A stretch of 64,000 nt of DNA from Micromonospora sp. WMMD980 (GTDB taxonomy: Bacteria; Actinomycetota; Actinomycetes; Mycobacteriales; Micromonosporaceae): positions 1,798,001 through 1,862,000 of the forward strand of contig NZ_JARUBE010000003.1 in the NCBI RefSeq assembly GCF_029626035.1, written 5' to 3'. The notes beneath the pieces are model-generated. The model searched no databases. It worked only from the letters and a program-made list of their open reading frames with translations, and was not told the origin of the DNA. Shown here piece after piece: positions 16,454 to 37,117 of the stretch. The position numbers were made by a program, and so were the translations under genes. The stretch's first letter is position 1; each line of letters begins with the position of its first letter.

Positions 16454-17902
16454 TACGGCAGCCGCCATTCGTGATCATGGTGGGAATTCGAGGTTGAGGC
16501 GGCGGGCGTAGTGGGCTCGTTTGGCTCGTGCTTGGTGTCGGCGTCGCCATGTTGACCAGCGCAAACGGTAGGCGATGCTGCGGGTCGGCCGGATGAGCAG
16601 GATGTTGATCAGGCGGCGGATCTCGTTGACGGTCAGCTCGATCATGTCGGGTTGACCGTGACGGTCTGCTGTTCGGGCGTCGGCGGCGCAGATCGCGAGG
16701 ACCGCGAGGGCTGCCAGGGCCAGGGTGGTGAACCGGTGCCAGGACGTCCAGCGGCGGACTTGGTGCTGGTCAAGACCGACCTGACCCTTTCCGGCCTGGA
16801 ACGATTCCTCCACGACCCAACGAACTCCCGCTACCCGCACGAGCTGGGCGAGGGTGGCCGGGCCGGGTGTCCAGCAACGGTAGAAGGCCAGCTCACCGGT
16901 GGTGTTGTTGCGGCGGATCAGCAGACTGTGCCGGCCGTCGTCGTCCGAGTCGCCGTCGGCGCCGACGTCGGTCAGCCATGCCCAGTCGTAGAACCGTGGC
17001 CCTTTCGACCCGTCGCCGGCACTGCGCCGGGTCCACGCGGTGGCAGGCAGGTCGGCGGCCAGCCGGTCGGCGCGACAACGGGTCTTCCCGCCGTCGATCG
17101 GCACGAGATGATCGCAGGAGACCGCCAAGACGTAGCCGAGGCGCAGTTTGCGCAGTTCACCCCGCAGCCGAGTGTTGTTGCCGTAGGCCTCGTCCGCGGC
17201 GACCCATCGGGCCGGGACCAGGGCTTGAACAGCGGCGGTGATCATGTCGTCGGCCAGCTCGGATCGGGTGGCGAACGCGACGTCGTCCGGGACGCCGGCC
17301 TGCTCACACCGCTGTCGATCGTCGGTCCAGGACTTCGGTAGGTAGACCCGGCGGTCGATCAGGGTGTGGCCGTGTCTGCTCGCGTAGGCCAGGAACACGC
17401 CAACCTGCGCGTTCTCGATCCGCCCGGCGGTGCCGGTGTATTGGCGCTGGACACCGACGGTGTGCACACCTTTTTTCAGATCGCCGGTCTCGTCAACGAC
17501 GAGGACCCCGTCGGGGTCGCCAAGCCGGTCGACGACGACCTGTCGCACGTCGTCACGCACCGCGTCGGCGTCCCACTTCGCCCGATACAGCAACCTCTGC
17601 ATCGCGTCCGGCCGGCCATGCCCGGCCTGCTCCGCCAACTGCCAACACGTCTTGATTTCGATATTCGTGAGCAGCCCTGTCACGAACGCCGCCGCCGCCC
17701 GCCGCGGCTCCACCCGCCCGAACCGTCCCGCGAACGCATCGCACACCCCGGCCAGGACCTGCCGCCACCGGGCAGGGTCTACGCTGTGGCACGCGGCCAC
17801 CGCCAGATCTGAAGTTATGTCCACAGCAGACAGACGATCACGCGGTGGCCGCACCTCGTCTACCGACCCCCACCAGCAACATCTCAAACGGCGGCTGCCG
17901 TA
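16454..17902. mobile_element. Complete IS701-family-like insertion sequence
   Basis: The element runs between two copies of the inverted repeat TACGGCAGCCGCC (16454-16466, and its complement at 17890-17902), with weaker similarity continuing inward. Both sides are flanked by TTAG (16450-16453 and 17903-17906), a four-base target duplication that fits the YTAR-type targets known for IS701. The whole is 1449 bases with a single intact transposase. Perfect duplications and ends suggest a recent insertion, into the gap between the ArsR-type gene and palindrome D. Confidence 0.92.
16475..17887 (-). CDS. IS701-like DDE transposase
   Basis: This 470-residue transposase fills the insertion sequence. 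The DDE catalytic set is visible: Asp in VLVVDETGDLKKG, Asp in RWVAADEAYGNN, and Glu in RWVVEESFQAGKG. The N-terminal region (VEPRRAAAAFVTGLL, then NCWQLAEQAGH-like text) is typical of the IS701/DDE_5 group. The start may be ATG 17887 or GTG 17863 (MDEVRPPRD). The reading frame is uninterrupted, so the element may be active. Confidence 0.92.
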   Translation of the reverse strand: MRCCWWGSVDEVRPPRDRLSAVDITSDLAVAACHSVDPARWRQVLAGVCDAFAGRFGRVEPRRAAAAFVTGLLTNIEIKTCWQLAEQAGHGRPDAMQRLLYRAKWDADAVRDDVRQVVVDRLGDPDGVLVVDETGDLKKGVHTVGVQRQYTGTAGRIENAQVGVFLAYASRHGHTLIDRRVYLPKSWTDDRQRCEQAGVPDDVAFATRSELADDMITAAVQALVPARWVAADEAYGNNTRLRGELRKLRLGYVLAVSCDHLVPIDGGKTRCRADRLAADLPATAWTRRSAGDGSKGPRFYDWAWLTDVGADGDSDDDGRHSLLIRRNNTTGELAFYRCWTPGPATLAQLVRVAGVRWVVEESFQAGKGQVGLDQHQVRRWTSWHRFTTLALAALAVLAICAADARTADRHGQPDMIELTVNEIRRLINILLIRPTRSIAYRLRWSTWRRRHQARAKRAHYARRLNLEFPP

Positions 17903-19650: not shown

Positions 19651-19790
19651 TCCGTCCGCACCGACGCGGCGGCCGGCCGGCGGCCGCCGCGTCGGCGTAT
19701 CCGGTGTGGATGTCCACGCGGTTGGGCGCGCGCGGTGCGAGGCTGGGGGAGGACGCCGCCGAGGGGGCCGGCGACCGCCGGGGAGGTGCG

Positions 19791-20567
19791 ATGGTCGAGC
19801 CGCCGACCGGGACCTCGGCCCACCGCGCGCAGGCGCACGGCCGGCACGCCAACCATCACCGCTACCACGACGGCGCGCAGGTCGACGGGTACGTCGACGA
19901 CCCGTACCATCGGGTGCGCCGTGCCGTCGCGGCCCGGCTGGTGGCCGAGGGGGTGACCGGCGGCGGCCCGGTTCTCGAACTGGGGTGTGGGTCACGCGGC
20001 ATGCTCGACCCGGTCGCGTTGCCCGGGCCGCTGGTGCTGGCCGACATGGCCGAGGCCGCGCTGGGCACCGCTCGGCGGGCCGCCGGCGGTCGGGCGACGC
20101 CGGTCTGCCTGGACGCCACCCGGGGGCTGCCGTTCCGGGCGGGCAGCTTCGCCGGCCTGCTCGCCGGTGAGCTGATCGAGCACGTCTACGACCCGCTGGC
20201 GCTGCTGCGGGAGTGCCACCGGGTGCTGGCCCCGGACGGCCTGCTGGTGCTCACCACGCCCAACCTCGCGCCGGTGCAGGACCGCCTGGCGTTCCTCGCC
20301 GGGCGGGCGCCGCGCCAGGTCGACCCGCTGCACCCCTACCTGTGGCTGCACATCCGTCCGTTCACCGCGTCACTGCTGCGGCGCACCCTGCGCCGGGCGG
20401 GGTTCACCCCGCTGGCGATCCGCTCGAACGAGGTCGTCTGGCGACTGCCCGGTGGCCGGTGGGTCACCTCGCGGTGGCTGGCCCGGGCGGCGCCGGGGCT
20501 GGGCGGCTCGCTGATCTGCGCCGCCCGGCGGCGCGCCGCGCCGCCACCGGCCCGGAACAGGGCGTGA
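19791..20567 (+). CDS. Class I SAM-dependent methyltransferase
   Basis: This is a 258-residue methyltransferase of the type-11 group. The ATG at 19791 follows GGGAGGTGCG. The SAM-binding glycine motif appears as LELGCGSRGML, followed by LVLADMAEAALG, the acidic motif region and a GELIEHVYDPLALLRECHRVL stretch typical of UbiE/Coq5-type enzymes. The C-terminal half (RPFTASLLRRTLRRAGF) is the usual cap. Substrate unknown. The next operon starts 57 bases downstream. Confidence 0.88.
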   Translation: MVEPPTGTSAHRAQAHGRHANHHRYHDGAQVDGYVDDPYHRVRRAVAARLVAEGVTGGGPVLELGCGSRGMLDPVALPGPLVLADMAEAALGTARRAAGGRATPVCLDATRGLPFRAGSFAGLLAGELIEHVYDPLALLRECHRVLAPDGLLVLTTPNLAPVQDRLAFLAGRAPRQVDPLHPYLWLHIRPFTASLLRRTLRRAGFTPLAIRSNEVVWRLPGGRWVTSRWLARAAPGLGGSLICAARRRAAPPPARNRA

Positions 20568-20623: not shown

Positions 20624-21634
20624 ATGGCGCGCCTGCTCGGTTGGGTCGTCACCAATCTCGACGCGTTCATCGGTCTCGTGCTGGCCGTCACGGTCGCCGT
20701 CCTGGGCCTGACCAACGCGGTCAGCCAGGACGTGGTCAACAGCGCCATCCTGCTGGTCCTCGGCCTGCTCGCGCAGGCGGTGCTGCGCGACCGGCTGCGC
20801 CGCCGCACCGCCGAGCAGGAGGTCCGCCAGGTCATCGTGGACACCCGGGAGCGGCTCACCGACCTGGTGCCGCCGATGCGCGAGCTGACCGGCCCGGAGG
20901 GCGCGCTGAGCCGGGCCCGGGAGGCGATCCACAGCTCCTCCATGGTGCGGGTGCTGCACGGCAGCGAGGTCGGTCAGGCGCTGGCCGAGGCGCGTCAGCA
21001 CACCGACAGGTGGGACTTCAAGGGCGGCACCGGCACCTACCTGCGCGCGGTGACCCTGCCCGAGTGCCTGCGACTGGCCCGCCGCCGCAACGCCACCCTC
21101 ACCGTCGCCGTCGAGATCATCGACCCGACCGACGAGGAGGTCTGCGAGCGGTACGCGCGTTTCCGGCGCAGCCTGGAGTCGGACGAGCCGACCGGGCGGA
21201 CCGAGCCGTGGACGGTCGACCGCACCCGCAAGGAGTCCTACGCGACGGTGCTCGCCGCCTGCTGGCACCTCCAGCGGTCCGGACTGCTCACGGTCGACCT
21301 GCGGCTCACCGCGCAGATGACCACCTTCCGCTACGACCTCTCCTCGTCCTGCGTGGTCGTCACCCAGGAGAACCCGCAGACTCCGGCGCTGCGCATCGAC
21401 CGCGGCGAGGTCTACTACAACCGGTTCAACATCGAGCTGGACTACAGCCGCCGGCAGAGCCGGCGGGTGCCGATCGAGTCGGCCGGTCAGGTCCGGCTCG
21501 ACGACGAGCCGTCGGTCGAGCAGGTACGCCGGCTGTTCGGCGCGCTCGGGCTGGCGCTGCCCCGCTCCTTCGGCGACCGGGAGGTCGCCGACATCGTGCG
21601 CAAGGCCCTCCAGGCGAGGAACCCCTACACATGA
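20624..21634 (+). CDS. Two-TM membrane protein with a large unknown soluble domain
   Basis: I do not recognise this 336-residue family. ATG 20624 follows GGGGGATGTC. Two membrane segments occupy residues ~10-32 and ~38-55 (FIGLVLAVTVAVLGL, then AILLVLGLLAQAVL), followed by an Arg-rich helix and a cytosolic domain of about 270 residues. That domain contains WDFKGGTGTYLRAVTLPE, AVEIIDPTDEEVCERYARFR and a beta-rich C-terminal part. Its stop overlaps the next start (ATGA), so it is coupled to the cupin-like and IMPase-like genes. The arrangement, a membrane helix pair plus a soluble domain, resembles effector or sensor layouts of SLATT/2TM type, but no homology is claimed. TTGACA (20576) and TATCAT (20588) occur upstream but are too close to form one promoter. 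Confidence 0.8.
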   Translation: MARLLGWVVTNLDAFIGLVLAVTVAVLGLTNAVSQDVVNSAILLVLGLLAQAVLRDRLRRRTAEQEVRQVIVDTRERLTDLVPPMRELTGPEGALSRAREAIHSSSMVRVLHGSEVGQALAEARQHTDRWDFKGGTGTYLRAVTLPECLRLARRRNATLTVAVEIIDPTDEEVCERYARFRRSLESDEPTGRTEPWTVDRTRKESYATVLAACWHLQRSGLLTVDLRLTAQMTTFRYDLSSSCVVVTQENPQTPALRIDRGEVYYNRFNIELDYSRRQSRRVPIESAGQVRLDDEPSVEQVRRLFGALGLALPRSFGDREVADIVRKALQARNPYT

Positions 21635-22284
21635 CGAGCTACGCCGACCTGGCACGGGAGATCGACCGGGGCGCCCGGCCGGAGCTGCTGCGCGACTGGG
21701 TCCTCGACGTGCTCGGCGACATCGCCGACGGCCGGCGGCCACTGCGGGCGGTCCGGCATCCGCTCGGCTTCACCTGCCTGCCGGTGGAGCGCGACGGCGC
21801 GGACGGCATCTGCGTGCACGCCTGGCCGGGTGAGCCGCCGCCGGTGCGCCCGAGCACCTCGGCCATGCACTCGCACAGCTGGGACCTGCTCAGCCACGTG
21901 CTGCACGGCACGGTCCGCAACGAGCTGATCGACGTCACCGACACGTCCGACGACCCGTCCTGGCGGGTCTACCAGGTGCACAGCCTCGGCGAGGTCGACG
22001 AGGTGGCCGCCACCGACCGGCTGGTGACCGCGGTGACGGCGACCGTGGAGACGCACTCCGCCGGCGACTCGTACGCGCTGCGTGCCGGCGGTTTCCACAC
22101 CTCGGAGGTGACCACCGGTGGGCCGGCCGTCACCGTGGCGCTCGGCCGGACCACTCCCGGCGCGTGCGACCTGAGCCTCGGCGCGGTGGACGGGCGCAGC
22201 CACCGCGTACGCCGGGACCGCTGCGACGCGGCGGAGACGGCGCGGATGGCGCGGCAGATCGCGCGACTGGTGGCACGGGGCTGA
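21631..22284 (+). CDS. Cupin-like metal-binding protein
   Basis: This is a 217-residue soluble protein overlapping the preceding stop by four bases. The centre looks like a cupin-type metal site: MHSHSWDLLSHVLHG with clustered His (~21865-21909) and a later GGFHTSEV. These could bind Fe or Zn as in cysteine-dioxygenase-like folds. The N-terminal helix bundle (YADLAREIDRGA, then LLRDWVLDVLGDI) is unrelated to enzymes I know. No specific reaction can be given. It is the middle gene of the operon, 15 bases before the phosphatase. Confidence 0.75.
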   Translation: MTSYADLAREIDRGARPELLRDWVLDVLGDIADGRRPLRAVRHPLGFTCLPVERDGADGICVHAWPGEPPPVRPSTSAMHSHSWDLLSHVLHGTVRNELIDVTDTSDDPSWRVYQVHSLGEVDEVAATDRLVTAVTATVETHSAGDSYALRAGGFHTSEVTTGGPAVTVALGRTTPGACDLSLGAVDGRSHRVRRDRCDAAETARMARQIARLVARG

Positions 22285-22299
22285 CTGGCTGGAGGAGCC

Positions 22300-23202
22300 A
22301 TGGACGTGGAGCCGAACAGAGGCGGGCCCGACCTGCGCGACGCGCACCGGTTCGCGGTGCAGGCGGCCCGGGCGGCCGGCCGGCTGCTACGCCGGGGCCT
22401 CCGGGAGGAGGTGCACGCCCGGGCCAAGGACGACTCCGGCGACGTGGTCACCGACCTCGACCTGGCCGCCGAGCGCCTGATCGTCGACCGGATCCGGGCC
22501 CGCTGGCCGGAGCACGGCGTGATCGCCGAGGAGGGCGGCGAATACGCCCCGGACACCACCTGGGCGTGGCTCGTGGACCCGCTCGACGGCACCAACAACG
22601 TGGCGATCGGCCTGCCCGCTTACGTGGTCGGCATCGCGCTGTGCGAGCGCGGCTCTCCGGTGCTCGGCGTGGTGCACGATCCGATCGCCGGCCGGACCTG
22701 GTCCGCGGTGCGCGGCCAGGGGGCCTTCGTGCACGGTTCCGACCCGGTGGGCTGCCGGCTGCGCGCCGCGCACCGGCCGGTGCCGGCCGCGCCGGTGTTG
22801 GCCTGGACCCAGGGGCACGGGGTACGCCGCGACGACAGCACCGCCCGGGCGTTGAAGGTCGTCCTCGACTCCACCGCCCGCCGGGTGCTGCAACTGTGGG
22901 CGCCGCTGCTGGCCTGGGTGATGTTGGCCCGCGGCGACATCGACGGAATCGTCGGCTACCGCCCCGAGTCGGTCGACCTGCCGGCCGGGATGCTGCTGGC
23001 GGCCGAGGCGGGGATGGCCGTGCGCGCGTTGGACGGCGGCACGTTCGACGACCGTTACGGCGTGCCGGCGGACCGGCGCAGCTTCGTTGCCGGCCCGCCG
23101 GAGACGATCGACCGGCTGGTCAAGCTGGTCACCGCGGCCCAGTGGATCGAACCGCAGGTGCGCCGACTCACCCCGGTCAGCCTCGGCTCGGTCGGGTGGT
23201 GA
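22300..23202 (+). CDS. Inositol-monophosphatase-family phosphatase, divergent
   Basis: This is a 300-residue member of the IMPase/FBPase/CysQ superfamily, Mg-dependent phosphatases of inositol phosphates, PAP or related small phosphates. GGAGGAGCC precedes the ATG. Visible motifs are DVVTDLDLAAE, IAEEGGEY and WLVDPLDGTNN. The canonical Phe after the DGT motif is missing, and the usual WD-x-A box reads VDLPAG, so specificity has probably drifted. It is the last gene of the 2TM/cupin/IMPase operon and overlaps a reductase remnant on the other strand by 26 bases. Confidence 0.88.
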   Translation: MDVEPNRGGPDLRDAHRFAVQAARAAGRLLRRGLREEVHARAKDDSGDVVTDLDLAAERLIVDRIRARWPEHGVIAEEGGEYAPDTTWAWLVDPLDGTNNVAIGLPAYVVGIALCERGSPVLGVVHDPIAGRTWSAVRGQGAFVHGSDPVGCRLRAAHRPVPAAPVLAWTQGHGVRRDDSTARALKVVLDSTARRVLQLWAPLLAWVMLARGDIDGIVGYRPESVDLPAGMLLAAEAGMAVRALDGGTFDDRYGVPADRRSFVAGPPETIDRLVKLVTAAQWIEPQVRRLTPVSLGSVGW

Positions 23203-31489: not shown

Positions 31490-32132
31490 TCAGGCGCCCG
31501 GCCCGACCAGCAGCGCGGCCACGGTGCCGGCGGTGGCGAGCGCGGCCAGCGCGGCGCTGGTGGCCACGAACCGGCCCAGCGGCACCGTCAGCCCGGCCGC
31601 CCGGCAGCGCTCGTACCAGATCAGCGTGGCCAGCGACGCCCACGGGGTGGCCAGCGGCCCGACGTTCGTGCCGGCCAGCAGCGCCAGCAGTTGGGTGTGC
31701 CGGTCGGCGGCGATGACCGCCTCGCCGGCCACGTAGGCGGGCAGGTTGTTGACCGCGTTGCTGAACAGCGCGCCGACCGCCCCCGCCCGCAGCGCGCCCT
31801 CCGCGCCCGGATCGGTGCCGATCAGCGCGCCCATGACCGTGTCCAGCCCGTGTCGGCCGATGGTCTGCACCACCAGGAACAGCCCGGTGACGAACACCAG
31901 CAGCCGCCACGGCACCAGCGCCGGGCGCAGCCGGTGCCGGGCCCGCACCGCGAAGCCGGCCACCAGGATCGCGGCGGCCACCCCGGAGGCGATCCCGATC
32001 TCCACGCCGGCCAGCACCCCGACGACGAAGAGCAGGCAGGCCAGCAGCGCGGTCCGGTAGAGCAGGCGGTCCGCCGGCAGGTACGGCGACGGCGGCACGA
32101 ACTCCTCGGCGCCGGCGCGGGCCGGTCGCCAG
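31490..32132 (-). pseudogene. ArsB/NhaD-type permease, C-terminal half only
   Basis: About 214 residues of the second half of an ArsB/NhaD (SLC13-like) ion transporter remain: TM-rich stretches with VGALFSNAVNNLPAYVAGE, the conserved NNLP motif, and GTNVGPLATPWASLATLIW. The first half, including the first half-channel, is missing. The frame stays open to the right only because it is antisense to the NACHT gene. Similarity ends near 32132, exactly where the N-terminally truncated NACHT gene begins on the other strand. Confidence 0.75.
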
Positions 32133-32188
32133 TATCGGGCAGCCCGCGCGAGTTCTCCGACGCGCTGAGCTTCCTCACCGGGCTGCGG

Positions 32189-35100
32189 GTGCTGCTCGGC
32201 CTGGAGCCGCACCGGCTGGTCGTGGTGCCCGGCCCGCGCGACGTGACGATGGCCGCCTGCCGGGCCTACTTCGCCACCTGCGAGGCCGACGACGTGGACC
32301 CGCAGCCGCCCTACTGGCCCAAGTGGCGGCACTACGCGCGGCTCTTCGACGACCTGTTCCAGGGCCTCGAGGACCGGATCTTCGACAGCGAGCAGCCGTG
32401 GACCCTGTTCCCGGTGCCCGACCTGCGGGTGGTGGTGGCCGGGCTGAACTCCACCATCGCCATCACCCACCGCGAGGAGGACCGCTACGGCTTCCTCGGC
32501 GAGGCGCAGTCGACCTGGTTCGCCCAGCGGCTGCGCCACTACCAGCAGTCCGGCTGGCTGCGGCTGGGCGCGATGGCGCACGCGCCCGGCCCGCGCAGCC
32601 CGTACGCCGACGAGGCCCCGCCGGACCGGGTGTCGCTGCGCGACCGCGGCTCGGTCAACCGACTGGTCGGCCCGATGCTCAACCTGCTGCTCTCCGACGC
32701 CGCGCCGGCCGGCCGGGCCGACCCGGTGGTGCCGCTGGTCGCCGCCCCGCGCGACGGCCGGGCCCAGGTGCTGCGCCTCGGCGTGGACGGGTCGACCCGC
32801 TGGGTGCTCGGCCGCGACCGCCCGGACGCCGGTGAGTCGACCGTCTCGGCGTGGCCCCGCGCCGAGGCGACGTTCGGCGCGTCCGGCCCGGCGCAGGTGC
32901 CCGACCCGCGCCGTCCCACCGTGGTCGAGGGCGCCACCCGGGCCGAGGTCGCGGCGCCGGTGACGCCGGTGGAGCGGCTGCTCGACCGGCTCGCCGAGGT
33001 GTGCGAGGCCCGCTACGACCGGGTGGTGGTGCGGCGGGTCGAGGCCGATCCGCCGCACCTCTTCGTCAGCTACCGGTCCGACGGCGTGGTCCGGCAGCAG
33101 CGGGTCGGCGCGCACGTGGGCACCCCCGGGCCGGAGGACGTGGACCGGTTCGCCCGCCGGGTGCACGCCGCCGACCCGGACATCGCCTCCGAGCTGGTCT
33201 ACGACGGCGACCGGGCGCCGCGCGGGCTGGCCGAGGAGGCGCAGCGGCGCGGCGTGCGGGTGCTGCACCTGACCGAGTTCCAGGGCCTGCTCGACCTGCG
33301 CGACTACGTGGCCGCGCAGACCGCCCGCCTCCAGGCCGACCGGCTCTACCCACCGGGGCAGTACGTGCCGCAGCGCTACCGGCACCTGGTCGGGGCCGAC
33401 CAGCGGGTCCGCGAGGACGTGGTGGACGAGCTGCTGGAGACGGTCTCCGCGCCGGACGGCCGGTTCGTGCTGGTGCTCGGCGACTTCGGTCGGGGCAAGA
33501 CGTTCGCGCTGCGCGAGGTGGCCCGCCGGCTGCCCACCGCCGCGCCCGACCTGATCCCGATCCTGGTCGAGCTGCGCGCGCTGGACAAGGCGCACTCCGT
33601 CGACGGTCTGGTCGCCGCGCACCTGGCCAACCACGGCGAGCAGGTGATCGACCTCAAGGCGTTCCGCTACATGCTGCGGCAGGGTCGCATCGTGCTGCTC
33701 TTCGACGGGTTCGACGAGCTGGTGGCCCGGGTGACCTACGACCGGGCGGCCGACCACCTGGAGACGCTGCTCCAGGCGGCCGAGGGCGCGGCGAAGATCG
33801 CGGTGAGCAGCCGGACCCAGCACTTCAAGACCAACTCGCAGGTGCTGACCGCGCTGGGTGAGCGGGTCGGCCTGCTGCCGCACCGCCGGGTGCTGGCGGT
33901 GGAGGACTTCACGCCCGGCCAGATCGAGGCGTTCCTGCGCAACCGTTACGGCGGCGACGAGGCGGCGGCCCGGGAGCGGATGAGCCTGCTCGCCGGCGTC
34001 AAGGACCTGCTCGGCCTCTCCCGCAACCCGCGCATGCTCGGTTTCATCGCCAACCTCGACGAGGGTCGGCTGGCCGCGGTGGCCGGGGCCGGCGGCACGT
34101 TCAGCGCCGCCGCGCTCTACCGCGAGATCCTGGAGTCCTGGCTGGACTTCGAGGAACGGCGCACCCAGGGCATCCCGGGCGCCCCGGTCAGCCTGCGCCG
34201 GCCCGAGCTGTGGCAGGCGGTGAGCCGGCTGGCGTTCCAGCTCTGGGAGAGCGGCGAGTCCTACCTGCGGCTGGCCGAGCTGGCCGAGTCCACCGGCCAG
34301 CTCGCCGGGCGGGCCGACTCGCGGTTGTCCGGGCCGCAGGCCACGCACGCGGTCGGCGCGGGCAGCCTGCTGGTCCGCACCGACGACGGGCTGTTCGGGT
34401 TCATCCACACCTCGGTGATGGAGTGGCTGGTCGCCGAGGGGGTCGCCGAGCAGCTCAACCGGGGTGAGGAGCCGGCCGCGCTGGCGGTACGGTCGCTGTC
34501 CGCGCTGGCCGTGGAGTTCCTGGGCGACCTCGCCGATCCGGCCCGCTGCACGGCGTGGACGGCCCGGGTGCTCGGCGACGAGTCGGCGGGCGAGACGCTG
34601 CGCGCCAACGCGTTGCGGCTGAGCGCCCGGCTGCGCCTGCCCGACCGGGCCGACCTGCGCGGCGCGGTGCTGCGCGGCGAGGACCTGTCGCACCGGGAGC
34701 TGGCGGGCGCGGACCTGACCGGCGCCGACCTGACCGACACCCGGCTGGTCGCCACGAACCTGACCGAGGCGCGGCTGGAACACGCCCGGCTGCGCGGGGC
34801 CCGGCTGGACGAGGCCCGCCTCGCCGGGGCGGACCTGCGTGGCGCGGAGCTGGCCGGCGCCCGGCTGTTCCGGGCCGACCTGCGCGGGGCGCGGATCGCC
34901 GGTAGCAGTTGGCACCGCACCGCGCTGATCGACGTCAGTGCCGACCCGGCGATGCTGCGCGCCCCGGAGCTGCGCGGCGCCGTGGTCGCGCCGGGCCGGC
35001 CGGTGGCGCCCGGCCTGGCCCCGCCGGCGGTGGGGGTGGGCTACGGCTTCGAGGTGGGCCGGCTGCCGGTGCCGGTCGCCTACAGCCCGGACGGCGCGGT

Positions 35101-37117
35101 GCTGGCGGTGGGCAGCGACGACGGCGGCGTGCTGCTCTGCGACACGGCGACCGGGCTGCCGGTGCGGACGCTCGCGGGTCACCGGTCCCGGGTCTACGCG
35201 GTCCGCTACGACGCGGCCTCGCACCAGCTCGTCACCGGCGCGGCCGACCTCACCGTGCGGTTGTGGGACGCCGACCACGGCGACGTGCGGCACGTCATCG
35301 AGGACGTCTTCGCCGGCTGGGTCTGGCCGCTGCTCACCGACGGCCGCCGGGGCCGGCTGGTGGTCGGCGACGCGGCCGGCGTGGTCCGGCTCTTCGACAC
35401 CCGCACCGCCCGGCTGCGCCACGGGTGGCCGGGGCACGACGCGCCGATCTGGGGCACCTCGTTCAGCCCGGACGGGCGGCGGGTGGTGGTGGCCGACAGT
35501 GCCGGCACGGTGCGCGGCTGGGACCTGCACACCGGTCGGCTGGCCTTCGAGGTGCGCGAGCCGGAGGTGGTCTACCGGGTGGTGCACTCGTCGGACGGCC
35601 GGCTGCTGGCCGCCGTCGGGCAGCACGGCCGGGTGTGGATCCGCCGGGCCACCGACGGCGAGCTGCTGCGCCAGCCGCGCGGGCACGAGGCCGACGTGTA
35701 CGCCCTCGACATCCACCCCGACGGCGCGCTGATGGCCACCGGCGACACGCACGGTGCCCTGCGACTGTGGGAGACCGAGACCGGCCGCCCGGTGCGGGTG
35801 CTCGGCCGGCAGCGCGGCGCGATCTACAGCGTCCGGTTCAACGGCGACGGCAGCCTGCTCGCCACCGCGGCCAGCGACGGCGCGATCCAGCTCTGGGACA
35901 CCGAGGACGGCCAGGTGCGCCACGAGCTGACCCGGCACCGCGGCTCGGTCTGGCCGGTGGTCTGGCGGCCCGACCAGGCCCAGGTCGCCACCAGCAGCAA
36001 CGACGGCACGACCCGGCTGTGGGACGTGCGCACCGGGCAGCTCCAGCAGACGCTGCGTGGGCACGGCCGGCGGGTCACCGCGCTCTCCTTCCGCGACGAC
36101 GGGGAGGTGCTGGCGGCGTGCGGCAACGACGGCGTGATCCGGCTCTGGGAGCCGCGCACCGGCCGCCTGCTGGGGCAGCTCGCCAGCCCGGCCGACCGGC
36201 TGCTCTCGGTGGTCTTCTGCCCGGACGAGCCGCTGGTGGCCACGCCCAGCGGCGACGGCGGCGTGCACCTGTGGAACACCGACACCGGCGCCGACGAGCG
36301 GGAACTCAACGTGGACACCGACCACGTCTGGGCGGTCGCGTTCAGCCCGGACGGCGACGCGCTGGCCACCGCGAACGACGACGACACGGTCCGGTTGTGG
36401 TACCGCCGCACCGGCCGGCACTTCGCCACGCTCACCCCGCACCGGGGCCGGGTGCGCACGGTGGCGTTCAGCCCGGACGGTGAGACCATCGCCACCGGTT
36501 GCGACGACCAGATGGTGCGGCTCTGGGACGCCGCCACCGCCACCTGCAAGCTGACCCTGGAGCACCACACCGACCGGGTCTACTCGGTCGGCTTCAACAG
36601 CGACGGAACGCTGCTGGCCAGCGCCGGCAACGACGGCACGGCGGTGATCTGGGACGTCTCCACCGGCGAGCGGCGCATCGTGCGCACCGAGCACGTCGGG
36701 CGGCTCTGGTCGTGCGCGTTCAGCCCCGACGGCAACCTGCTCGCCACCGCCGGCGACGACCTGGTGATCCGGCTCTGGGATCCGGTCACCGGGCGCAAGC
36801 ACGGCACCCTGGCCGCGCACACCCGGCGGGTCTGGTCGGTGCACTTCAGCCCGGACAGCAGCCTGCTGGCCAGCGCCGGAGACGACGGCACGGTGCGGCT
36901 GTGGGACGTGGCGGACCCGGAGCACGCGCAGTTGCGGGCCACCCTGATCGGCCTGCCGGACGGTTGGGCGGCGGTGAGCCCGGACGGCCGGTACAAGCTC
37001 GACGGCGACCCCGGCGGCCAGTTCTGGCACGTCATCGGCACCTGCCGCTTCGAGGTGGGCGAGCTGGACCCCTACCTCACCCAGGTCCGCCGGATGGCCG
37101 TCGACGCCCCCTTCTGA
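32189..37117 (+). CDS. Giant STAND protein: phosphoesterase remnant, NACHT, pentapeptide and WD40
   Basis: Homology starts at ~32133 (SGSPREFSDALSFLTGLR); the first usable in-frame start is GTG 32189. The order is: the end of a calcineurin-like phosphoesterase domain (VVVPGPRDV, VAGLNSTIAITHREED), whose DxH and GD motifs are lost; a Mrr/REase-like segment (RRVHAADPDIASELVYDGD); a NACHT ATPase with Walker A GDFGRGKT (~33481-33504) and Walker B IVLLFDGFDEL; winged/superhelical linker; pentapeptide repeats (~34640-34910); and about 15 WD40 repeats (~35070-36990), enough for two propellers. Such proteins belong to the signal-transducing NTPases that include antiviral Avs/NACHT systems. Defence is plausible but unproven, and the protein may be inactive after its N-terminal loss. 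Confidence 0.85.
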   Translation: MLLGLEPHRLVVVPGPRDVTMAACRAYFATCEADDVDPQPPYWPKWRHYARLFDDLFQGLEDRIFDSEQPWTLFPVPDLRVVVAGLNSTIAITHREEDRYGFLGEAQSTWFAQRLRHYQQSGWLRLGAMAHAPGPRSPYADEAPPDRVSLRDRGSVNRLVGPMLNLLLSDAAPAGRADPVVPLVAAPRDGRAQVLRLGVDGSTRWVLGRDRPDAGESTVSAWPRAEATFGASGPAQVPDPRRPTVVEGATRAEVAAPVTPVERLLDRLAEVCEARYDRVVVRRVEADPPHLFVSYRSDGVVRQQRVGAHVGTPGPEDVDRFARRVHAADPDIASELVYDGDRAPRGLAEEAQRRGVRVLHLTEFQGLLDLRDYVAAQTARLQADRLYPPGQYVPQRYRHLVGADQRVREDVVDELLETVSAPDGRFVLVLGDFGRGKTFALREVARRLPTAAPDLIPILVELRALDKAHSVDGLVAAHLANHGEQVIDLKAFRYMLRQGRIVLLFDGFDELVARVTYDRAADHLETLLQAAEGAAKIAVSSRTQHFKTNSQVLTALGERVGLLPHRRVLAVEDFTPGQIEAFLRNRYGGDEAAARERMSLLAGVKDLLGLSRNPRMLGFIANLDEGRLAAVAGAGGTFSAAALYREILESWLDFEERRTQGIPGAPVSLRRPELWQAVSRLAFQLWESGESYLRLAELAESTGQLAGRADSRLSGPQATHAVGAGSLLVRTDDGLFGFIHTSVMEWLVAEGVAEQLNRGEEPAALAVRSLSALAVEFLGDLADPARCTAWTARVLGDESAGETLRANALRLSARLRLPDRADLRGAVLRGEDLSHRELAGADLTGADLTDTRLVATNLTEARLEHARLRGARLDEARLAGADLRGAELAGARLFRADLRGARIAGSSWHRTALIDVSADPAMLRAPELRGAVVAPGRPVAPGLAPPAVGVGYGFEVGRLPVPVAYSPDGAVLAVGSDDGGVLLCDTATGLPVRTLAGHRSRVYAVRYDAASHQLVTGAADLTVRLWDADHGDVRHVIEDVFAGWVWPLLTDGRRGRLVVGDAAGVVRLFDTRTARLRHGWPGHDAPIWGTSFSPDGRRVVVADSAGTVRGWDLHTGRLAFEVREPEVVYRVVHSSDGRLLAAVGQHGRVWIRRATDGELLRQPRGHEADVYALDIHPDGALMATGDTHGALRLWETETGRPVRVLGRQRGAIYSVRFNGDGSLLATAASDGAIQLWDTEDGQVRHELTRHRGSVWPVVWRPDQAQVATSSNDGTTRLWDVRTGQLQQTLRGHGRRVTALSFRDDGEVLAACGNDGVIRLWEPRTGRLLGQLASPADRLLSVVFCPDEPLVATPSGDGGVHLWNTDTGADERELNVDTDHVWAVAFSPDGDALATANDDDTVRLWYRRTGRHFATLTPHRGRVRTVAFSPDGETIATGCDDQMVRLWDAATATCKLTLEHHTDRVYSVGFNSDGTLLASAGNDGTAVIWDVSTGERRIVRTEHVGRLWSCAFSPDGNLLATAGDDLVIRLWDPVTGRKHGTLAAHTRRVWSVHFSPDSSLLASAGDDGTVRLWDVADPEHAQLRATLIGLPDGWAAVSPDGRYKLDGDPGGQFWHVIGTCRFEVGELDPYLTQVRRMAVDAPF

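Follow-up and report, generated by a model that had tools for sequence, protein, structure and literature searches.

Introduction

The STAND NTPase conflict systems of multicellular bacteria contain TIR, calcineurin and two-transmembrane (2TM) SLATT parts, according to the available portions of two accounts (PMC7159879, 2020; PMC8195603, 2021). Set against those portions, the large protein that we call D is similar in being actinobacterial and in joining TIR and calcineurin-like effector-type domains to NACHT and WD40, whereas the membrane protein that we call A carries a predicted pseudo-phospholipase-D (pseudo-PLD) domain and has no SLATT match. The arrangement in which A is followed by a cupin (B), a phosphatase (C) and a permease (E) does not appear in the same portions of PMC7159879 and PMC8195603, and words beginning with cupin or inositol occur 0 times in the main texts of the two papers.

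The smaller proteins also have relatives of known kind. Members of the IMPase superfamily (SuhB, HisN, CysQ) share PF00459 with C but have a WDxA box where C has VDLPA, and C falls far below the HisN and CysQ cut-offs. Cysteine and cysteamine dioxygenases have an HxH...H site, as does B, and Foldseek places them near the top of its matches to the B model; B has no sequence match to any PDB chain or Pfam family, however, and other cupins match its model equally well by VIA-align. A can be likened to non-catalytic PLD-fold ligand domains, namely the sugar-binding domain of TrmB (2f5t) and DUF1669 of FAM83B (5qhm). Enzymes that hydrolyze nucleotide phosphates occur in each of the NUDIX, EEP and IMPase classes.

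A preliminary description of the locus, confined to A, B and C, could name no known system with this gene set. We found no description of it in the literature searched, subscription journals being mostly outside the coverage of that search.

Results

Organization of the locus in WMMD980

The sequence analyzed (the window) is a 64-kb stretch of Micromonospora sp. WMMD980, whose genome comprises 6.83 Mb in four contigs. It contains the following features.

19704..20567, plus strand: methyltransferase (PF08241/PF13489), start codon uncertain
20624..21634, plus strand: A, 336 residues, two N-terminal transmembrane helices and then a predicted degenerate phospholipase-D-fold domain without HxKxxxxD
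21631..22284, plus strand: B, 217-residue cupin
22300..23202, plus strand: C, 300-residue IMPase-superfamily phosphatase (PF00459), DPLDGT and EE motifs intact, VDLPAG signature
31490..32134, minus strand: remnant of E, an ArsB/CitMHS-type permease located between C and D in relatives; the C-terminal half is present
32135..37117, plus strand: D remnant, STAND protein minus TIR and the first part of a phosphoesterase-like domain

The three genes A, B and C lie on the same strand with exactly the spacing first described, A and B overlapping by 4 bases (ATGA) and B and C being separated by 15 bases. When each was compared with its counterparts at 8 Micromonospora loci, dN/dS was 0.145–0.35 for A, 0.21–0.43 for B and 0.16–0.27 for C; all three are thus under purifying selection. 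The nearest named relatives of A, among the matches listed, are from Micromonospora.

The methyltransferase gene stops 56 bases short of A, and a methyltransferase was found at 18 of the 80 loci described below (Micromonospora, Plantactinospora) as well as at variant loci L129, L130, L195 and L196. An IS701-family transposase gene (16475–17887, minus strand; NF033540, 422 bits) lies ∼2.7 kb upstream of A, and at about 25.3–25.6 kb a short segment recurs several times inside one reading frame. PADLOC searches of ten neighbor genes returned Csa3/CARF-like matches for one gene, a mad2-like match for the methyltransferase, and nothing else.

A is a membrane protein with a predicted pseudo-PLD domain

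Two N-terminal membrane helices had been proposed for A, and both are borne out by hydrophobic stretches (19-residue windows with a Kyte-Doolittle value above 1.6 begin at residues 4–17, 32 and 35–37) and by helices in the predicted structure, where they have moderate confidence (pLDDT about 65–75). The ∼270-residue domain that follows, which the preliminary description could not place, is real and matches no named family, but it can now be placed: residues 111–330 are modeled with a pLDDT of mostly 80–97 (69 at 181–190), and Foldseek and VIA-align matches assign the model to the phospholipase-D fold. These fold-search results, for A as for B, name families among the matches listed, and others may also fit. 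The HxK(x)4D catalytic motif is present in 0 of the 52 rows of alignments A1, A5 and A8 (42 distinct proteins), and we therefore rejected the possibility that A is an active PLD enzyme.

Pfam searches returned no family for A at E≤10, SLATT included, and neither A nor B has a significant match in Pfam, NCBIfam or PADLOC. The PADLOC model of a CBASS-type 2TM effector matches A weakly and over residues 9–82 only (E=0.0085). A known PADLOC system was rejected as an identification because no family fits B or C and the match to A is weak and confined to the transmembrane region. Profile comparison places distant A proteins in the same family as A (220 columns, E=1.4e-35). Among the viral contigs and phage records searched, no match was found for A, for its relative on a Rhodococcus opacus plasmid, or for C, and a phage-borne origin was rejected on these grounds.

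B is a cupin and C belongs to the IMPase superfamily

The His-rich, cupin-like site noted earlier in B is supported by both the predicted structure (pLDDT 94) and an alignment of 11 sequences at 21–58% identity, in which His43, His63, His80, His82 and His156 are invariant; H80, H82 and H156 form a predicted three-His cupin site. YubC, ADO and cysteine dioxygenase are among the high-ranking Foldseek matches to the B model, and some database sources label close relatives of B as cysteine dioxygenase. B has no sequence match to any Pfam family or PDB chain, however, and so is not placed in the cysteine dioxygenase family by sequence. Because VIA-align ranks many cupins equally (cysteine dioxygenase 4qm9 is at rank 36), we call B a cupin with an HxH...H site and no more.

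The assignment of C to the IMPase superfamily holds (PF00459, E=5.6e-43; 147.8 bits against a cut-off of 27), as do the VDLPAG box in place of WDxA and a DGTNN motif without the usual Phe. The DPxDGT metal motif occurs, as DPLDGT, in 81 of 81 matched copies of C, including that of the window itself, and VDLPA occurs in 63 of the 81 matched stretches; the VDLPAG box is a family trait. All 10 listed NCBIfam equivalog models (HisN, CysQ or IMPase) score C below their cut-offs, the best being HisN (133 bits, cut-off 275) and CysQ (99 bits, cut-off 229). The residue that we take to be the inositol-contacting Glu of SuhB-type IMPases is Gly in C when aligned by eye, and inositol monophosphate is therefore not favored as its substrate.

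A-B-C belongs to a conserved five-gene unit

Using A alone, we fetched 80 loci from named genomes, these being the best 80 of 243 candidates, so that close relatives dominate. At 80 of 80 loci, B and C adjoin A and are collinear with it. This adjacency led us to reject scattered housekeeping genes as an explanation: homologs of the three genes are mostly not scattered independently, and A matches no characterized housekeeping family. The preliminary description had missed a larger unit, in which A-B-C is followed by E on the opposite strand and then by D, in the order A-B-C>, <E, D>, at 68 of the 80 loci; 60 of these 68 have a TIR match starting at most 5.2 kb from the start of A.

The remaining 12 loci comprise three where the contig ends near A (L013, L014, L064), one with 5.6 kb of downstream sequence (L016), and eight from Micromonospora. 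Coordinates matched to the genus search place D 13–26 kb from A in five of the eight (L003, L009, L012, L015, L074) and on another contig in two (L004, L008); L005 lay outside that sample. The widest A-D spacing noted was about 42 kb (G325). At one further locus (L215, genome G591), two divergent copies of A adjoin, one of which heads a full A-B-C/E/D unit.

D of the relatives is a protein of ∼1,900 residues with TIR, phosphoesterase-like, inactive restriction endonuclease (REase), NACHT, pentapeptide and WD40 parts. The L022 copy has matches to TIR_2 (4.9e-34), NA-iREase3 (5.8e-42) and NACHT (3.8e-11), together with pentapeptide repeats and WD40, and so carries the TIR, NACHT and repeat domains of a TIR-NACHT STAND protein. 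Its calcineurin-like domain is below cut-off, whereas that of L060, whose D N terminus reads TIR, phosphoesterase and iREase, is above it. The phosphoesterase metal motifs of D look degenerate by eye. E, between C and D, is an ArsB/CitMHS-like permease that scores 154.7 against NCBIfam ArsB, far below the cut-off of 457.

The unit occupies several chromosomal contexts. A uvrB gene is present in the fetched flank of 52 of 80 loci, in genera that we take to be Streptosporangiales, and coaE in that of 33 of 80; in Nocardia, both efp and nusB lie beside the unit at all 8 loci. None of uvrB, coaE, efp and nusB was found within the fetched flanks of the 17 Micromonospora loci, nor was any seen at L192–L194, where three genomes of another family carry the full unit.

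D co-occurs with A across genomes

The preliminary description had called for a phylogenetic profile of A, B and C in relation to defense genes, and in that profile D, a receptor gene of a kind ascribed to bacterial conflict systems, co-occurs with them, mostly adjoining A-B-C. A itself is patchy (13/296 and 21/394 in class samples; 35/120 in one family). A match to A is present in 32 of 121 Micromonospora genomes; 29 of the matches are at no less than 80% identity and 3 are distant (24–31%). At E≤1e-150, D was found in 29 of the 29 genomes with close A and in 2 of the 92 others (G301, which carries B, and G317, a fragmented assembly); at E≤1e-60, the latter count was 4 of 92. Matches to B were found in 35 of the 121 genomes, namely the 29 with close A, the 3 with distant A, and G301, G397 and G324, the last interrupted by a stop codon. 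E is broader than A or B (84 of 121). Because 55 genomes without close A contain E, in some cases as similar as linked E, it may be a neighbor.

In other genera, D at E≤1e-60 was present in 37 of 45 A-positive genomes compared with 1 of 20 A-negative genomes, where the sole match has no TIR. These counts are of presence per genome, irrespective of linkage, and the 20 negatives are those listed of 85 without A. No D was found in 8 of the 45 A-positive genomes, and in G233 the distance between D and A amounts to millions of bases.

For 30 hand-chosen loci (29 independent, L046 and L203 being the same place), we built trees of A, B, C, E and three domains of D, which agree with one another at normalized Robinson-Foulds (RF) distances of 0.22–0.41. 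The domains of D agree with one another to about the same extent (0.26–0.37). The congruence fits joint inheritance, and a shared species history would look alike.

Variant loci

Parts of the unit also occur separately. A-B stands alone at coaE-uvrB at L208 and L209, and L210, L212 and L214 have A-B-C with no E or D in the stretch, which at L212 ends 2 kb after C; the genome of L214 holds D, unlinked to A-B-C. A is alone or decayed at L211, L213 and L202. On the Rhodococcus opacus plasmid pCP135 (L204), A-B follows a serine protease gene at a distance of 97 bases; here, both A and B are annotated as hypothetical.

The third gene changes class. At L126 and L127, A-B is accompanied by an EEP-family enzyme in place of C, and at L128 and L191 a NUDIX domain is fused to B. 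The distant A-B-EEP trio of L126 has a thrS-like gene on one side and a HIT-like gene on the other, and that of L127 precedes HIT-like and phosphatidylinositol-synthase-like genes (all named by eye); these neighbors could point to an inositol-lipid ligand or reflect chance.

B also accompanies D at loci where we found no A: at L195 and L197, together with a distant E-like permease, and at L196, where the sequence starts 734 bases before B and the context is cut. At L129 and L130, again with A not found, B lies beside an HTH-phosphoesterase-NACHT-WD40 protein, followed in this tandem STAND locus by a methyltransferase and then a TIR-phosphoesterase piece that lacks NACHT. B is thus the hub of the set, A-B and B-D pairs each being found without the remaining genes. 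In addition, three genomes (L198, L200, L201) encode a B-like cupin flanked on one side by a membrane protein other than A and on the other by a convergent NUDIX gene; we rejected these as A-B pairs because the membrane protein of L198 has no Pfam family and does not look PLD-like by eye.

E and D are truncated in the WMMD980 sequence

The window has E and D at 31490–37117, a distance of 8.3 kb from A-B-C, and compared with L002 1,413 bases are missing at 32134/32135. The missing bases correspond to the first half of E, the E-D intergenic region and the TIR of D, so that the window's own D has no TIR effector domain, while its inactive REase, NACHT, pentapeptide and WD40 parts are still open. 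The starts of E and D are both intact in L002 and in the close relative G366. Direct repeats of at least 12 bases were found inside neither of the 61-base L002 flanks, each searched by itself. The truncated E abuts D, and an antisense frame of E runs into D, which gives rise to a misleading 1877-residue open reading frame. D function has probably been lost in WMMD980 through a strain-specific deletion, or the assembly is wrong at the breakpoint. A-B-C remains open although D has lost its effector; dN/dS cannot date the loss.

Discussion

We tentatively propose, with less than even confidence, that A-B forms the core of a membrane-located actinobacterial module. The module would both sense and process a phosphorylated small molecule and would usually be coupled to the TIR-NACHT-WD40 protein D. 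This proposal draws on the association of A, B and C at every fetched locus, the order A-B-C>, <E, D> at most of them, the co-occurrence of D in several contexts, the congruent trees, the pairing of B and D at loci in which no A was found, and the change of class of the third enzyme. Counted against it are the absence of D from 8 of 45 A-positive genomes, A-B or A-B-C without D, the lost effector of the window's D, the lack of a viral or phage match for A, and the lack of a fitting PADLOC family for B or C. A-B-C is shared by many soil actinobacteria, and because it usually travels with the immune-receptor-like D, the likeliest reading is that it handles signals for a system of that kind. We observed directly the gene order, the families, the status of the motifs and the co-occurrence, and a role in defense for A-B-C is what we infer.

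In this module, A, anchored by two transmembrane helices, would bind a ligand through its non-catalytic PLD-fold domain. B, translationally coupled to A, would be a metal cupin that oxidizes or isomerizes the ligand or a small co-substrate. C, whose motifs are conserved, or an EEP-family or NUDIX enzyme elsewhere, would hydrolyze the phosphorylated molecule and so set its level. If the balance were upset, for example by infection, a signal might reach D, whose NACHT would assemble and deploy TIR on NAD+, domains that are present in relatives. E, given its permease family, may carry the molecule or a product across the membrane. In WMMD980, the step of D activation is probably broken because D lacks TIR, and A-B-C is intact.

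The preliminary description saw in A-B-C a membrane effector or sensor with two small-molecule enzymes, possibly a signaling or defense module linked to nucleotides or inositol phosphates. The part that stands is that a membrane protein and two small-molecule enzymes are kept together, usually in a genome with a TIR-NACHT-WD40 receptor; the idea of a dedicated defense operon fares less well given A-B(-C) without D, the fixed place near uvrB in many genera and the lack of a match in the viral contigs and phage records searched. These same observations bear on a possible but doubtful alternative, in which A-B-C acts by itself in metabolism or stress, for example in the repair or turnover of a damaged phosphorylated metabolite or lipid headgroup, and has no more in common with D than the site of insertion. 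The persistence of A-B and A-B-C without D (L208–L210, L212, L214, the last with D unlinked in its genome), the place near uvrB held over many genera, the open A-B-C beside a broken D in WMMD980 and the absence of phage or viral homologs from the records searched are all consistent with it. However, D is far commoner with A than without it (37/45 compared with 1/20; in Micromonospora, 29/29 compared with 2/92), A and D are paired in several chromosomal contexts, and B accompanies D at some loci without an A that we found.

It is unlikely that A is instead a membrane effector, a pore or disruptor, opened by a nucleotide from the TIR of D, with B and C as an off-switch that destroys the nucleotide. 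The 2TM and ligand-type domains of A, the TIR in D, and the fact that NUDIX, EEP and IMPase enzymes all include nucleotide-phosphate hydrolases count in its favor. Yet there are A-B pairs with no TIR or D found nearby (L126–L128, L191, L208, L209), A matches no Pfam family, SLATT included, and no TIR product is known for D. A further point in favor is that 2TM SLATT proteins are joined to nucleotide enzymes in conflict systems, as described in the available portions of PMC7159879. Finally, a thiol or metalloid detoxification cluster composed of a cysteine-dioxygenase-like cupin, an ArsB-like efflux pump and a methyltransferase is improbable: cysteine and cysteamine dioxygenases are among the best Foldseek matches of B, E is ArsB/CitMHS-like and the methyltransferase recurs, but many unrelated cupins match B equally or better by VIA-align, E is far below the ArsB cut-off, and A, C and D are left unexplained.

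Returning to the membrane module coupled to D, a further step, which we regard as speculative, is that A-B with an interchangeable hydrolase (IMPase, EEP or NUDIX) constitutes an undescribed signaling system that licenses or restrains a TIR-NACHT-WD40 receptor. On this view, the appearance of EEP or NUDIX in place of IMPase would limit the ligand to molecules on which several phosphate hydrolases can act. If the proposal is true, two families with no significant match in Pfam, NCBIfam or PADLOC would gain a first testable role, an NLR-like receptor would gain named genetic partners and an assayable small-molecule circuit, and a bacterial NLR-like protein would be controlled by a dedicated metabolite circuit.
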